Source: Balneolaceae bacterium (GTDB taxonomy: Bacteria; Bacteroidota; Rhodothermia; Balneolales; Balneolaceae). From it: 64,000 nucleotides of DNA. Numbering within the stretch: position 1 is the first letter of the stretch; each line of letters starts with the position of its first letter. A program made the translations under genes and the position numbers. Below, piece by piece: positions 3,221-62,825 of this stretch. The stretch is taken from assembly GCA_018401935.1 (NCBI GenBank), contig JAGYJQ010000009.1, positions 1 through 64,000 of the forward strand, written 5' to 3'. Below the pieces are notes generated by a model. The model had not been told where the DNA came from. It did no database searches and saw nothing but the letters and a program-made list of their open reading frames with translations.

Positions 3221-4702
3221 ATGTTTTTATTGGTAGTATATATAGTATTAGGTATTCAAGTAGGTCTTGTGGATAAGATGGTATCACCGCAGGACCATGA
3301 AGGTGCAGGGGACCATACGTCCGTTTATGAACGAGTGGTCTTGGAATTTCCCGGTAAAAAAAATGTGTATCTCAATTCCATTTCGGTAACACTAAATCCG
3401 GTACAGGGTCATCTATATTTCTTTGAAAATGAAATAGGGGTGTTACACAAACTAGACCCAACGGGTGGTCTAACGGTTCTAGATACCCTGGAATTTCCTG
3501 AGTCCAATGAATATCATTTTGTTGAAAGTAGGCGAAATGGTCAAGCACTGCTGTTTTGGGAGGTTGGGTTAGGAGAGGTGTACGAGTATGAAATCTCCTC
3601 CGGCTTACTGCGTCATCTCTCGGATACGGATGTAAATAAACTCATGTACTCTCATGGGGCTGTACTTGATACACAGGGTGATTTGCTTAGTTGGGGTGGA
3701 TATGGTTTTTGGGAGATGAGGAAGTTACTGCTTATCTATAGTATGGAAAAAAATGAATGGTTGTTGGGTTCCGATGGCTTTCATGATTATCAGGAATACA
3801 GCTACTTCCATGATATTTGGTACGATTCTAGTCAAGCTAAATTAGATTACCTATTCAATCTACTTATGGAGAATGGTGACATTCGATATAACGCCGGAAG
3901 CTATGATATTGAGGGTGACCGATGGGAATCTAAACGATGGTTTTCAGTTGATAAGCAAGGGGTTGATCATCGCAGATCAAGGCCATTATTTATTCAAAAT
4001 AGCTATCTGAGCGATTACAATTCGGGTATTCACTACTTGTCCAACGCTCAATTTTATAGCTCAAGGACCTATGAAATCTTGCGTCTAGACCCTGAAATGT
4101 TCCCCAATCTCAGATTCGTAGCTGGATTTTATTTAGCCAAAGAAAATGACTGGTTACTCATTGGCAAGGATGTGGATAACAGTACTACCAACCTAAAAGT
4201 TATCCGGCTACCAAATGAAGAGCTTAAGCTAAGCCCAATTCCATCGTTATCCTATCCTTGGGTGCATGCCCGTAGCTATTGGTGGGTAGGACTCCTACTG
4301 GTCCTCATCGTTGTCAGCATAGGAGTTTTTGCTTATAGAAGGAAGCATTTTATAGGCCAAAAAAATGATCGATCTCAGGTTGAATTGGGACAAAATGTAC
4401 AAGGGGTACAGGTGCGTTTCAATGGCGAGTCTGTAACTATTACCGATGATTACGTGCAACGAAGCTGGGCTCTTATTTACCGGCTAAAGCAAAGCGGTCA
4501 AGACCTTATTCGAATTAACGATTTTGATGAAGAAGTCTTTTTTGATAATCATTCTGGGCCCTTTCGATCGAGAAAGAGAAAGGCTGTGTTAAAAGCAGTC
4601 AACCGGCATATTGAAGAGCCCATCCTCAGGGTTGTTATTAACAGCATCGATAAACGGTATAAAGATATCGAGCTAGATCTAACGCTAGTTACGATTAGCT
4701 AG
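3221..4702 (+). CDS. Membrane-anchored protein with predicted beta-propeller ectodomain, function unknown
   Basis: I do not recognise the family. The 493-residue protein starts with a hydrophobic segment (MFLLVVYIVLGIQVGL), then about 330 residues rich in beta strands and repeated Trp/Tyr/Gly motifs (LYFFENEIGVLHKLDPTG, LLSWGGYGFWEMRKL) that look like Kelch-type or similar propeller blades. One clear transmembrane helix follows at about 352-372 (WWVGLLLVLIVVSIGVFAY, then RRKH). The remaining 120 residues would be cytoplasmic and contain a basic helix (GPFRSRKRKAVLKAVNRHI). The layout, an outer sensor-like domain, one helix and a small inner domain, would suit a signalling protein, but no known output domain is visible. 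Confidence 0.7.
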   Translation: MFLLVVYIVLGIQVGLVDKMVSPQDHEGAGDHTSVYERVVLEFPGKKNVYLNSISVTLNPVQGHLYFFENEIGVLHKLDPTGGLTVLDTLEFPESNEYHFVESRRNGQALLFWEVGLGEVYEYEISSGLLRHLSDTDVNKLMYSHGAVLDTQGDLLSWGGYGFWEMRKLLLIYSMEKNEWLLGSDGFHDYQEYSYFHDIWYDSSQAKLDYLFNLLMENGDIRYNAGSYDIEGDRWESKRWFSVDKQGVDHRRSRPLFIQNSYLSDYNSGIHYLSNAQFYSSRTYEILRLDPEMFPNLRFVAGFYLAKENDWLLIGKDVDNSTTNLKVIRLPNEELKLSPIPSLSYPWVHARSYWWVGLLLVLIVVSIGVFAYRRKHFIGQKNDRSQVELGQNVQGVQVRFNGESVTITDDYVQRSWALIYRLKQSGQDLIRINDFDEEVFFDNHSGPFRSRKRKAVLKAVNRHIEEPILRVVINSIDKRYKDIELDLTLVTIS

Positions 4703-58920: not shown

Positions 58921-60588
58921 ATGCCACGCGAAAGCGGTATATCTGTTTGTGAATACCATGTGATGGGTAGATTTTCACCTTCGTTCAACAGGACTGCTGT
59001 AATTGCAGTCAATCGGCTTTACAATAAACTGTTCACTGGTTTGTTCTGTGGCCTGAGTCAAAGCCTGGCAGATGTTCTATCTGTGTACAAAGCTATGCGA
59101 GGGTACTGCTACTGTCTTTGGCTTGCATTCCTATTCTTACAGAGTACGTTCAATCCTGGCATTTATGCAAATGCTCATGAGCTGCACATAGAATCTAAAG
59201 ATACGTTGGCACTTCCACCCCCCATTGGTCTTGGTGAAATTGAAATTATAGCTGAAAACCCATACCAAGATTTTCAACTACTTAGTACTCAGTATGGTCG
59301 ATTATCAAAAGAAATTTTAGAACTTAGATTAGCGTCGCATATGGGGAGTATTGCACAAGAATTTAGCTCCGCTTATGTGCAAACCAACGGGCCCGGAAGC
59401 TTAGCATTACTTTCACAAAGAGGGTTGCCAGCTTCTAGAACCCAGGTAGTTTGGAATGGTTTCGGGTTACATCACCCCATGTTAGGAGTGGTCGATTTAT
59501 CCTTAATACCAAGTAATCTGTTTGATGCGGTACTGTTTACTCCTGGCTTAGGGCAGACTCGATTTGGAGGGAGTGGAGCGGGCTCGATGCACATTCTTCA
59601 ACAACCGTTTGATGGGGAGAAAATAGCTATTCAACAATCGATTGGTAGTTATGGGACAAAGCAGTCTACTATTCATGCGGCATCTTCAAAGCAAGGGATA
59701 TCTTGGGATGTAAGGCTGTATAACAAGACAGCCGAAAATAATTTTGGCTATAAAAAACGAGTATTTGATTCAGATCAGCGAGCCGTCGTACCCAAGTGGT
59801 TTACTCGTACGAATAACGAAACCCAATCCCATTCGGTCATGTTCAATTTTAGGAAGGAATCCGATGTAGCTACCCTGGAATCTTCTCGGGATAAGGCTTC
59901 AGCTAAAAAGAATCCCTCATTCCGCACTTTTATTGCCAACAGTGAATATCAAAGTACTTTTTGGGCTTTTACGCAGGACAACAACGTACCAGGAAGCAAG
60001 CTATCGCCAACTCTTAGGGCGAGTCAAGAGGATGATTTCCTACGTTGGATGCAAGGGCTACGTTGGGGGGTGAGGAATCAGTGGAGAATGCAACATTTTA
60101 GTCAGTGGCAGTCACTCGATTTCCAAGATCCTGACAAAGACATTGATAGTGAGAGTGACATTTGGAGTAGCATTTTTCGACTGGAACACCAAGGCAGAAT
60201 AGGGGAGCGTGCTTTATTGCAAAGCTCAGCAGAGTGGTCTAGTACGGGTGTTCAAAGCTCGGACTACAACGGAACTCGCTCTCGGTGGTCACTTTCTCAT
60301 AGGCACTCAATGCAGCGTGAGTTCGGCACGAAAAGCGTTCTTCGAGCGGATATACATCAAGCCTTTTACAACGATTTTGGGTGGAATTGGTCGGGTGAGG
60401 TGGGTTGGAACTCGAAGTTAAGCTCGGCACTTGGGATTCGATTTCTTTCGGCTAAAAGTTCAGTCATTCCTACCTTTAACGATTTATACTGGCCGAGTTT
60501 AGGAAACCCGGATTTAAAAAGTGAGCAGGTGTATTCCCTCGAAGGAGGGCTTCAGTGGGCGCAGACTGCTACGGTGGAATGCGGGTAA
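58921..60588 (+). CDS. btuB: TonB-dependent cobalamin receptor (BtuB-like), N-terminal fragment
   Basis: BtuB carries corrinoids across the outer membrane with TonB energy. This frame holds most of the protein. The ATG at 59095 (MRGYCYCLWLAFLFLQ) starts a proper signal peptide and may be the true start; the 58 codons before it look like leader. The plug domain follows: GSIAQEFSSAYVQTNGPGSL, LSQRGLPASRTQVVWNGFGL, GGSGAGSMHILQQPFDGEKI, then barrel strands up to FNDLYWPSLGNPDLKSEQ. The frame ends at TVECG* where indels occur. The cobalamin riboswitch upstream supports the assignment. Confidence 0.85.
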   Translation: MPRESGISVCEYHVMGRFSPSFNRTAVIAVNRLYNKLFTGLFCGLSQSLADVLSVYKAMRGYCYCLWLAFLFLQSTFNPGIYANAHELHIESKDTLALPPPIGLGEIEIIAENPYQDFQLLSTQYGRLSKEILELRLASHMGSIAQEFSSAYVQTNGPGSLALLSQRGLPASRTQVVWNGFGLHHPMLGVVDLSLIPSNLFDAVLFTPGLGQTRFGGSGAGSMHILQQPFDGEKIAIQQSIGSYGTKQSTIHAASSKQGISWDVRLYNKTAENNFGYKKRVFDSDQRAVVPKWFTRTNNETQSHSVMFNFRKESDVATLESSRDKASAKKNPSFRTFIANSEYQSTFWAFTQDNNVPGSKLSPTLRASQEDDFLRWMQGLRWGVRNQWRMQHFSQWQSLDFQDPDKDIDSESDIWSSIFRLEHQGRIGERALLQSSAEWSSTGVQSSDYNGTRSRWSLSHRHSMQREFGTKSVLRADIHQAFYNDFGWNWSGEVGWNSKLSSALGIRFLSAKSSVIPTFNDLYWPSLGNPDLKSEQVYSLEGGLQWAQTATVECG

Positions 60589-60634
60589 AATTAGAAACCG
60601 ATGTTCAGCTGATATTACTGGAATAAGGTGAACA

Positions 60635-61249
60635 ATGGCATACGTTAAGGCTTTGATGGCGGGCGACGTTCAAGGCCTGAATATAGAGGCAATCACGGCG
60701 CGAGGTTTCGAATCAGACATAGCCTTAGCCTTTCAGCATGCTCGGCTTAGCGGTATGGTAAAAAGTGGGGTATACCAAGTGATTGCACATATGGATAAGG
60801 AACGCTACGAAGATGATCCGGCACTAAACAAACAACTGCGATACACTCCCGAGTGGCAGTTTAAGCATTATGTCCATCTCAGGTATAAATCTATGCAGTT
60901 AATGCTATCTAATTCTTACGTAACTGAGCGCTACAGCAGCGCTGATCACTCAAGTCCTTTTGACCCTCTTTCTGCGTATTCAACATGGAACACGGCCTTC
61001 GGTATTGATATTCCTTGGTCAGGTAATCGGCCACCGCGGCCCAAGGAAGTAACGATGGCTACTACACAAACCAACAGAAAGATTCTGGGACAGCCACTTT
61101 GGCAACTTCGCTGGAGGGTAGAGCTAAATAACATTTTTTCAGAAACCTATGAGCAGGTGCTTAACTACCCCATGCCAGGTCGACATTTTATGCTAAGCAT
61201 TCAATTAAATCGTGTAGCCCATGAAAATAGACCCTTCACGAACAAGTAG
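60635..61249 (+). CDS. btuB: TonB-dependent cobalamin receptor (BtuB-like), C-terminal fragment
   Basis: This frame continues the barrel: residues after NIEAITARGFESDIALAFQH, then QLRYTPEWQFKHYVHLRY and the ending WRVELNNIFSETYEQVLNYP followed by PMPGRHFMLSIQLN, the usual C-terminal strand. The stretch between the two fragments (about 60565-60690) can be read in a third frame as DCYGGMRVKLETDVQL and YYWNKVNNGIR, which fit the barrel. At least three indels are therefore needed, in about 110 bp. Sequencing error or a recent pseudogene are both possible. Confidence 0.82.
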   Translation: MAYVKALMAGDVQGLNIEAITARGFESDIALAFQHARLSGMVKSGVYQVIAHMDKERYEDDPALNKQLRYTPEWQFKHYVHLRYKSMQLMLSNSYVTERYSSADHSSPFDPLSAYSTWNTAFGIDIPWSGNRPPRPKEVTMATTQTNRKILGQPLWQLRWRVELNNIFSETYEQVLNYPMPGRHFMLSIQLNRVAHENRPFTNK

Positions 61250-61301: not shown

Positions 61302-62825
61302 ATGAATGTACTATCAAGCCGAATTGAACCGAATCAGACAGATACGAATCGAACAGAATCAAGCCGAATTGAACCGAATCAGACAATCAAACAAAAGCCA
61401 CTGACATTTCCTGTCATAGCCAAGGGGCACTTCTTTGTTTTATTCCTACTTGGTTACGCCCTTTCGACCTCACAGATGAATGCACAGGTCAATGTACAGA
61501 TGAATACACAATCAGCTTTTGAGTCCGGCGCCACCTTAGAGTACCTGCTCATTGGTAACGAAGGCGGTTTTGGTTCATCAAATGCCACGATTAGTCGGTA
61601 CAATCCGGTTACTAAGAACCTGCTGGACGGGGTATTTTTAGGTGCAAATGGTATAGGATTAGGCGATGTACTCCAAAGTTTACAGTATTATGATGGTCAG
61701 ATCTATGCGGTTATGAACAACTCAGCACAAATTGTGGTGATGGACCCTAAATCATTTACCCAGCAAGGTCTTATTTCATTACCTGATGGGGCTAGTCCCA
61801 GGCAAATACTCCATCTAAATGCAGAGATAGCCTATGTCACCGATTTATATGGAGATTTGATTCATTTGATAAACCCAGCCACACAGCAGGTACTTTCCAC
61901 CAAAATTTCGGTAGGAGATGGCCCTGAATTTATGGTCTATCATCAAGAAGCTGTTTTTGTAGGAAATTATGGCTTTGGGCAAGATTCGACCATCATGGTT
62001 ATTGATCCAGCTCAACATAAGGTGGTTGATACCTTAGTGGTGGCCTCTGGTCCGGGTCAAATAACCATGGACAACAATGGTGATCTATGGGTAGTATGCA
62101 CCGGCTATGCGGGAGATTATGACGAGCAATGGAATTTAATAGAAGGTACCCAGCGGCCTGGGGGGCTTTTTCGCATAGAAAAGGATGCTCAAGATCAACA
62201 ATGGAGGGTCACAAAGGAGTTAGAGCTCAAACAAGCAGGCATTCATCTAGGATACGATCCCAATAATGAATACCTCTATCTACAAAGCGAGGGAATCAAA
62301 CGGGTCGATCTAACCCAGTCAGTGCTAGCCCCTGAAGCTATTATTTCAGGTTCATATTATTCATTTTACTATGAGAGTGTAGGGGGTGATATTTATTTAG
62401 CCGATGCCAAAGACTATGTGAGTGCCGGCTCCGTCCGGGTGATTGATACCGAAACCCTTCAGGATTTGGATACATTTAGTGTGGGGATTATACCCGGAAG
62501 TTTTTTGGCGATCTACGCATCAGAAAGCACAGCGATTGATCAACTGGATGATGAGGGACCGAGCCTGGTTGAGTTATACCCTAATTATCCTAATCCATTT
62601 AACCCAACAACTCAGATACAATACTCCATACCGGAGAGTGGATTTGTTGAATTAGTAATTTTTAACTCGTTAGGCCAAAAAGTAGCCATTTTGGAGCAGG
62701 GTATAAAACAAAGAGGACGTTATACCCAGACGTTTAATGCACAACATTTACCTTCGGGTGTGTACTATGCACACGTATTATTTAATGGCTATCAGCGTGT
62801 TACGAAAATGTTACTAATTAAATAA
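61302..62825 (+). CDS. BtuG-like beta-propeller surface protein with T9SS sorting domain
   Basis: The frame opens at 61221, inside the btuB end; I take the ATG at 61302. After a signal segment (FFVLFLLGYALSTSQMNAQ) comes a YncE/DUF5074-type propeller: EYLLIGNEGGFGSSNATISR, GIGLGDVLQSLQYYDGQIYA, PRQILHLNAEIAYVTDLYGD and VGDGPEFMVYHQEAVFVGNY. The C-terminal ~80 residues are a type IX secretion sorting domain (YPNYPNPFNPTTQIQYSIP... GVYYAHVLFNGYQRVTKMLL). In Bacteroides, BtuG propellers of this kind bind cobalamin at the surface and sit on BtuB. There they are lipoproteins; here the protein would be attached by T9SS. Position after btuB supports a corrinoid-capture role. Confidence 0.82.
   Translation: MNVLSSRIEPNQTDTNRTESSRIEPNQTIKQKPLTFPVIAKGHFFVLFLLGYALSTSQMNAQVNVQMNTQSAFESGATLEYLLIGNEGGFGSSNATISRYNPVTKNLLDGVFLGANGIGLGDVLQSLQYYDGQIYAVMNNSAQIVVMDPKSFTQQGLISLPDGASPRQILHLNAEIAYVTDLYGDLIHLINPATQQVLSTKISVGDGPEFMVYHQEAVFVGNYGFGQDSTIMVIDPAQHKVVDTLVVASGPGQITMDNNGDLWVVCTGYAGDYDEQWNLIEGTQRPGGLFRIEKDAQDQQWRVTKELELKQAGIHLGYDPNNEYLYLQSEGIKRVDLTQSVLAPEAIISGSYYSFYYESVGGDIYLADAKDYVSAGSVRVIDTETLQDLDTFSVGIIPGSFLAIYASESTAIDQLDDEGPSLVELYPNYPNPFNPTTQIQYSIPESGFVELVIFNSLGQKVAILEQGIKQRGRYTQTFNAQHLPSGVYYAHVLFNGYQRVTKMLLIK
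61314..61385 (+). repeat. 27-bp direct repeat in the propeller gene
   Basis: The 27-bp unit at 61314-61340 recurs exactly at 61359-61385, offset 45 bp, encoding SRIEPNQT twice in the N-terminal region before the signal peptide. The offset keeps the frame. Confidence 0.9.

Follow-up and report, generated by a model that had tools for sequence, protein, structure and literature searches.

The closest described systems are BtuG1, BtuG2 and BtuG3 of Bacteroides thetaiotaomicron (structures 8bmy, 8bai, 8okv and 8p97; PMC6143338, PMC10404256), which carry a lipobox, an export signal after its cysteine and an N-terminal anchor. Lipidation had been seen as inherent to BtuG, and a lipobox was found in "nearly all" of 114 gut homologues (PMC6143338). 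Changing the anchor cysteine of a B. thetaiotaomicron BtuG leaves the protein undetectable, the lipid signal of BtuG2 is needed for its stability, and BtuB2 holds the lid at the cell; when btuB2 is deleted, BtuG2 appears in the supernatant (PMC6143338). Further surface B12 binders of Bacteroidota loci are the accessory lipoproteins BtuH, BtuJ (DUF4465) and BtuK, which differ from the protein described here in having other folds or, as BtuK1 (9s6c, 17% identity by Foldseek), a distant propeller. More than 70% of DUF4465 proteins are predicted lipoproteins, and T9SS delivery is not mentioned for them (PMC13398666). A surface lid over a TonB-dependent barrel is a feature also of the SusCD and RagAB pedal-bin transporters, although their ligand is a different one. 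SusD-type lids are lipoproteins with a fold unrelated to BtuG, and the described cargo of the type IX secretion system (T9SS) consists mostly of enzymes and adhesins. A T9SS-delivered BtuG, or any T9SS-delivered lid of a TonB transporter, was not found described in the open-access library searched, papers that name BtuG together with T9SS, or DUF5074, included.

The window, by which is meant the whole 64,000-nucleotide stretch of DNA analysed, comes from a member of the Balneolaceae in an uncultured marine genus and holds at its end a B12 locus in which a cobalamin riboswitch is followed by a btuB-like receptor gene, a btuG-like gene and nrdJ (Table 1). By a genome-wide count this is the only cobalamin riboswitch of the genome. 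CobI/CbiL, which marks synthesis of the corrin ring and was recognised in 13 of 14 control genomes, gave no match in this genome (94% completeness), which fits a dependence upon imported B12. The btuG-like product has in common with BtuG1-3 the propeller, a btuB neighbour, a cobalamin riboswitch, the ligand loop and an expected surface display, whereas it departs from them in having a predicted Sec signal peptide, no lipid anchor and a C-terminal T9SS sorting domain (hereafter the tail). It is a BtuG homologue, and one outside the lipoprotein class, since it is without a lipobox, as are all 43 of the tailed homologues considered below. We regard it as likely that this protein acts as a capture lid for BtuB delivered to the surface by the T9SS instead of by the lipoprotein route, its B12 binding and its localisation being predicted from its relatives and its signals.

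Table 1. Features of the B12 locus in the window (positions counted from the first nucleotide of the window).
Feature	Start	End	Strand	Basis
Cobalamin riboswitch aptamer RF00174	58613	58830	+	cmscan 103.4 bits, E 9e-25, gathering threshold 31.5, full model 1-189
btuB-like TonB-dependent receptor, N-terminal part with signal, plug and most of the barrel	58921	60588	+	frame 1; Plug PF07715; weak TIGR01779 TonB-B12; tblastn with related receptors
btuB-like receptor, C-terminal barrel part	60635	61249	+	other frame; homology to about 61210; tblastn with related receptors
btuG-like gene, propeller and T9SS sorting domain	61302	62825	+	ORF, 507 aa from ATG at 61302
Predicted Sec signal peptide (type I), hydrophobic stretch	61422	61484	+	predicted cut MNA|Q, no lipobox; read from sequence; congeners alike
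BtuG-type beta-propeller domain	61539	62519	+	alignment bounds; BtuG structure matches; Foldseek
Linker from propeller to sorting domain, about 22 residues	62520	62585	+	length alike in almost every tailed homologue
C-terminal sorting domain (Por_Secre_tail / TIGR04183)	62586	62822	+	PF18962 and TIGR04183 above curated cut-offs
nrdJ start, B12-dependent ribonucleotide reductase	63286	63999	+	NF005736 E 3e-134; gene continues past window edge; also downstream in congeners

That the gene codes for a BtuG-like DUF5074 propeller, as the original prediction had it, is borne out by the Pfam match to DUF5074 (E 4e-17, 62.7 bits against a cut-off of 27.2) and by phmmer, with which the best nine matches among PDB sequences are BtuG chains or close relatives along the whole propeller (E 2e-33 to 1e-30), the best solved-structure matches being BtuG1-3 of Bacteroides. 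Structure prediction, proposed at the outset as a check and run on six congeners in a shallow alignment, gave a propeller model of moderate confidence (pTM 0.63, mean pLDDT 65), for which the top 13 Foldseek matches all belong to the BtuG family (E 5e-20 to 4e-18, about 30% identity). The numbering of BtuG2 taken from PDB chain 8bn0 agrees with the residues given in PMC10404256, and so the BtuG2 contacts named there can be compared with the window. According to that paper, 13 residues of BtuG2 make hydrogen bonds with the ligand and the loop from Asn54 to Thr64 is one arm of the "pliers" that grip it; the comparison covers the positions named in the text. The loop reads NEGGFGSSNAT in the window, and Asn54, Gly56, Phe58 and Asn62 are retained in 93-100% of tailed homologues. 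Tyr239, Tyr316 and Tyr335 are conserved in the window propeller, an aromatic residue (Tyr or Phe, by alignment) lies at or beside the position of Trp194, and Trp272 is not conserved. When btuG is compared by codon between the window and five congeners, dN/dS comes to about 0.09-0.14 for the propeller and to 0.05-0.23 for the sorting domain, purifying selection which argues that the ORF is not a chance one and that the tail, too, is under selection.

A BtuG-fold surface protein might instead take another ligand, such as a different tetrapyrrole or a metal complex, and be merely co-regulated with B12 uptake. Its corrinoid binding is a prediction from sequence, Trp272 is missing, and the related propellers of hydrazine synthase and NirN are among the weaker Foldseek matches. 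All propellers other than BtuG, however, score many orders below the best matches, the contact loop is conserved, and a cobalamin riboswitch and a BtuB-like partner accompany the gene in nearly all loci, so that a different ligand seems highly improbable.

At the N-terminus of the btuG product the hydrophobic signal stretch ends without a cysteine (KGHFFVLFLLGYALSTSQMNA|Q) and hence, by sequence reading, without a lipobox; the type I signal peptide, assigned by eye and with a hydropathy rule, has the standing of a prediction. The n-region (61302-61421) is unusually long at some 40 residues and repeats an SSRIEPNQT motif that is a direct repeat in the DNA, the BtuGs of congeners also having long n-regions, of differing sequence; the frame itself stays open upstream as far as an ATG at 61221. 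At the C-terminus both Por_Secre_tail PF18962 (E 1.3e-8, 35.5 bits against a cut-off of 27) and TIGR04183, the T9SS type A sorting domain (E 2.2e-9, 37.1 bits against 23), are matched. In its missing lipobox and in its T9SS tail the protein therefore reads as originally predicted, and T9SS genes, whose absence would have spoken against export by this route, are present in the genome: SprA at 1490 bits, the PorV family above its cut-off at 196 bits, and 44 Por_Secre sorting domains above cut-off. With T9SS type A cargo (TIGR04183/PF18962) the protein shares the predicted type I signal peptide, the YPNPFNP start and basic end of the tail, and SprA and PorV in the genome; it differs as a putative capture lid of a TonB-dependent transporter, a kind of cargo that was not found described. 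The model for the PorU sortase (NF033707) matched sorting domains only in this 94% complete genome, which leaves anchoring by a sortase unsupported there, and next to a PorV homologue stands a gene in whose product no peptidase domain was recognised. A protein of 1281 aa (L281, 842-4687), which matches the sorting domain weakly and has zero Pfam domains, is encoded directly ahead of a PorV homologue and is possibly a divergent PorU-like partner.

The original prediction paired the BtuG-like protein with a BtuB-like receptor; a receptor gene does adjoin, but in the window its frame is broken. Several small indels disrupt it at about 60564-60680 in this assembly, some 120 bases across which homology with related receptors carries on in another frame (tblastn), and the rest of btuB is open. 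Each of five congeners (L090-L094) has the receptor as a single uninterrupted ORF of 747-787 aa, and the order of receptor, btuG and nrdJ is kept in four of them, the contig of the fifth ending after btuG. For the receptor of one congener (L090) the only PDB matches are BtuB3 and BtuB2 of B. thetaiotaomicron (E 2e-30 to 1e-26), which identifies the pair in the window as a BtuB-BtuG pair. With the indels clustered and the congener receptors intact, the break looks more like a local sequence or assembly error, or a very recent loss, although the pair could be broken in the window's own strain. A decaying locus, with btuB a pseudogene and btuG a leftover (the other tailed loci being unaffected), would account for a frame that breaks several times in about 120 bases, and a local assembly error would do so equally well. 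Against decay, btuG is open and under purifying selection, the riboswitch still scores 103 bits, and the locus is the sole one with a cobalamin riboswitch in a genome that has nrdJ and in which CobI/CbiL was not recognised, and so with five congeners intact we find decay quite improbable.

How general the arrangement is can be judged from its class, where BtuG homologues occur in 144 of 245 genomes and from which, together with a few from elsewhere in the phylum, 116 homologues were read, most with their flanks. A T9SS tail of about 100 residues without a lipobox is found in 43 and a lipobox without a tail in 73, and among the 116 none has both and none has neither, the lipobox being called by the hydropathy rule. 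So strict an either/or is to be expected if each signal is by itself enough to bring the protein to the surface; it backs the identification of both signals but is no surprise in itself. In 72 of the 73 lipoprotein forms the lipobox cysteine lies near the propeller, after which at most nine residues follow, and in 61 of these 72 the residues just after the cysteine are net acidic, as an export signal would be. The 73rd (L266, genome G292) has an inserted domain of about 110 residues between lipobox and propeller. From cysteine to propeller the lipoprotein forms have a median of 14 residues, whereas the tailed forms have a median of 4 from the predicted mature N-terminus to the propeller (16-22 in the window's own genus), with some 22 residues of linker from propeller to tail; the short N-side spacing and the C-side linker suggest that the tether has moved to the opposite end of the propeller. 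The N- and C-terminal ends of closed propellers lie near each other, and so the geometry of a lid could be retained.

A search for fusions of DUF5074 with T9SS domains next to btuB, likewise proposed at the outset, thus turned up 43 tailed cases in the class and beyond, and in 41 of them the gene immediately upstream, in the same orientation, codes for a receptor, as it does in 65 of the 73 lipoprotein loci; for one of the two remaining tailed loci the flank is too short to judge. The cobalamin riboswitch was present in all 32 tailed loci searched with enough flank. That a tailed form is found where the T9SS is present and a lipoprotein where it is absent was considered and rejected, as SprA occurs in all 78 genomes tested, the 48 with a lipoprotein form as well as the 30 with a tailed one, and a missing T9SS does not explain the choice of anchor.

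The main rival to a lid delivered by the T9SS is that the tailed BtuG is exported, has its sorting domain cut off and becomes a soluble, high-affinity corrinoid carrier that picks up its ligand in the medium before docking on BtuB, or else a sponge that denies neighbours B12. Such a carrier would agree with the scant N-terminal linker (median 4) and free 22-residue linker before the tail, with the lack of any PorU-type sortase recognised above cut-off, with the entry of BtuG2 into the supernatant upon btuB2 deletion (PMC6143338) and with the action of added BtuG as a corrinoid sponge in coculture (PMC13374852). It would be a protein counterpart of a siderophore, with which bacteria would forage for B12 away from the cell. 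However the gene is tied to a receptor gene in 41 of 43 loci, like that of the lipoprotein lid, a divergent PorU can escape detection, and loss into open water would presumably be costly for a free-living cell; a released carrier is on balance rather unlikely. A case apart, which also bears on release, is a 589-aa protein (L040, 5528-7294, minus strand) with DUF5074, an Ig-like/HYR domain and a T9SS tail, encoded immediately after a cobalamin riboswitch and lacking an adjoining receptor gene, and this is a candidate secreted B12 binder.

Quite how the two forms came about was addressed with a maximum-likelihood tree built from 330 columns of the propeller domain, without tail or signal. On it the tailed BtuGs stand in at least two places, and probably in four: four changes of the tail label are needed, of which the starred branches force at least two, and a quick tree built from the partner receptors calls for six, counts that carry no direction. 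That the tailed form arose once in the class is rejected (AU test, p 4e-4). The window's family holds both kinds, in different genera, and nrdJ lies downstream in loci with a tailed form (L090-L093) and in loci with a lipoprotein (L063, L070, L071, L073 and L074). The homologues from outside the class are all lipoproteins but one, which suggests that the lipoprotein form is the older.

The best-supported account of the tailed BtuGs is that of a T9SS-delivered lid, and the known lid on the B12 transporter probably has a second way of being built. Scarce B12 would act through the cobalamin riboswitch to switch on the btuB-like and btuG-like genes; the BtuG product would cross the inner membrane via Sec with a cleavable signal peptide, and its C-terminal sorting domain would take it through the type IX system across the outer membrane. 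Retention at the surface may be by the sorting domain or its exchange product, by contact with BtuB, or by both. As BtuB2 holds BtuG2 at the cell, a non-lipidated lid kept by barrel and tail is plausible by analogy. The propeller would then capture a corrinoid and hand it to BtuB for TonB-driven import, to feed B12-dependent enzymes such as the neighbouring NrdJ. Counting against a lid are the change at Trp272, the pTM of the model and the receptor frame broken in this assembly.

Tailed BtuGs occur in many relatives, the window's own genus included, and recur across a bacterial class, so that in several lineages the anchor appears to have been exchanged for a T9SS tag with the BtuB partner and the riboswitch regulation unchanged. 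This offers a natural experiment upon the roles of the lipid anchor and of an N-terminal hinge in lid opening, and it links the field of T9SS with that of TonB-dependent uptake. For the annotation of B12 uptake in environmental Bacteroidota it follows that searches for lipoproteins only would overlook the tailed BtuGs.

Some loci of the survey have unusual layouts. In two loci of one family (f31; L039, 7109-8770, and L043, 7031-8374, reverse-complement coordinates) the gene after that of a lipoprotein BtuG codes for a second propeller, one with a match to the BtuG model and with a T9SS tail, so that both anchor types adjoin, and each locus has a third tailed protein; another locus (L042) has a comparable tailed protein after btuG, without a match to the BtuG model. 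In a further genome (G191, locus L035) two cobalamin riboswitches (363-580 and 4225-4446) lie 3.9 kb apart, one before btuB-btuG and the other before genes for proteins of 327 aa and 823 aa, which, judged by eye on their translations, resemble subunits of ribonucleotide reductase.
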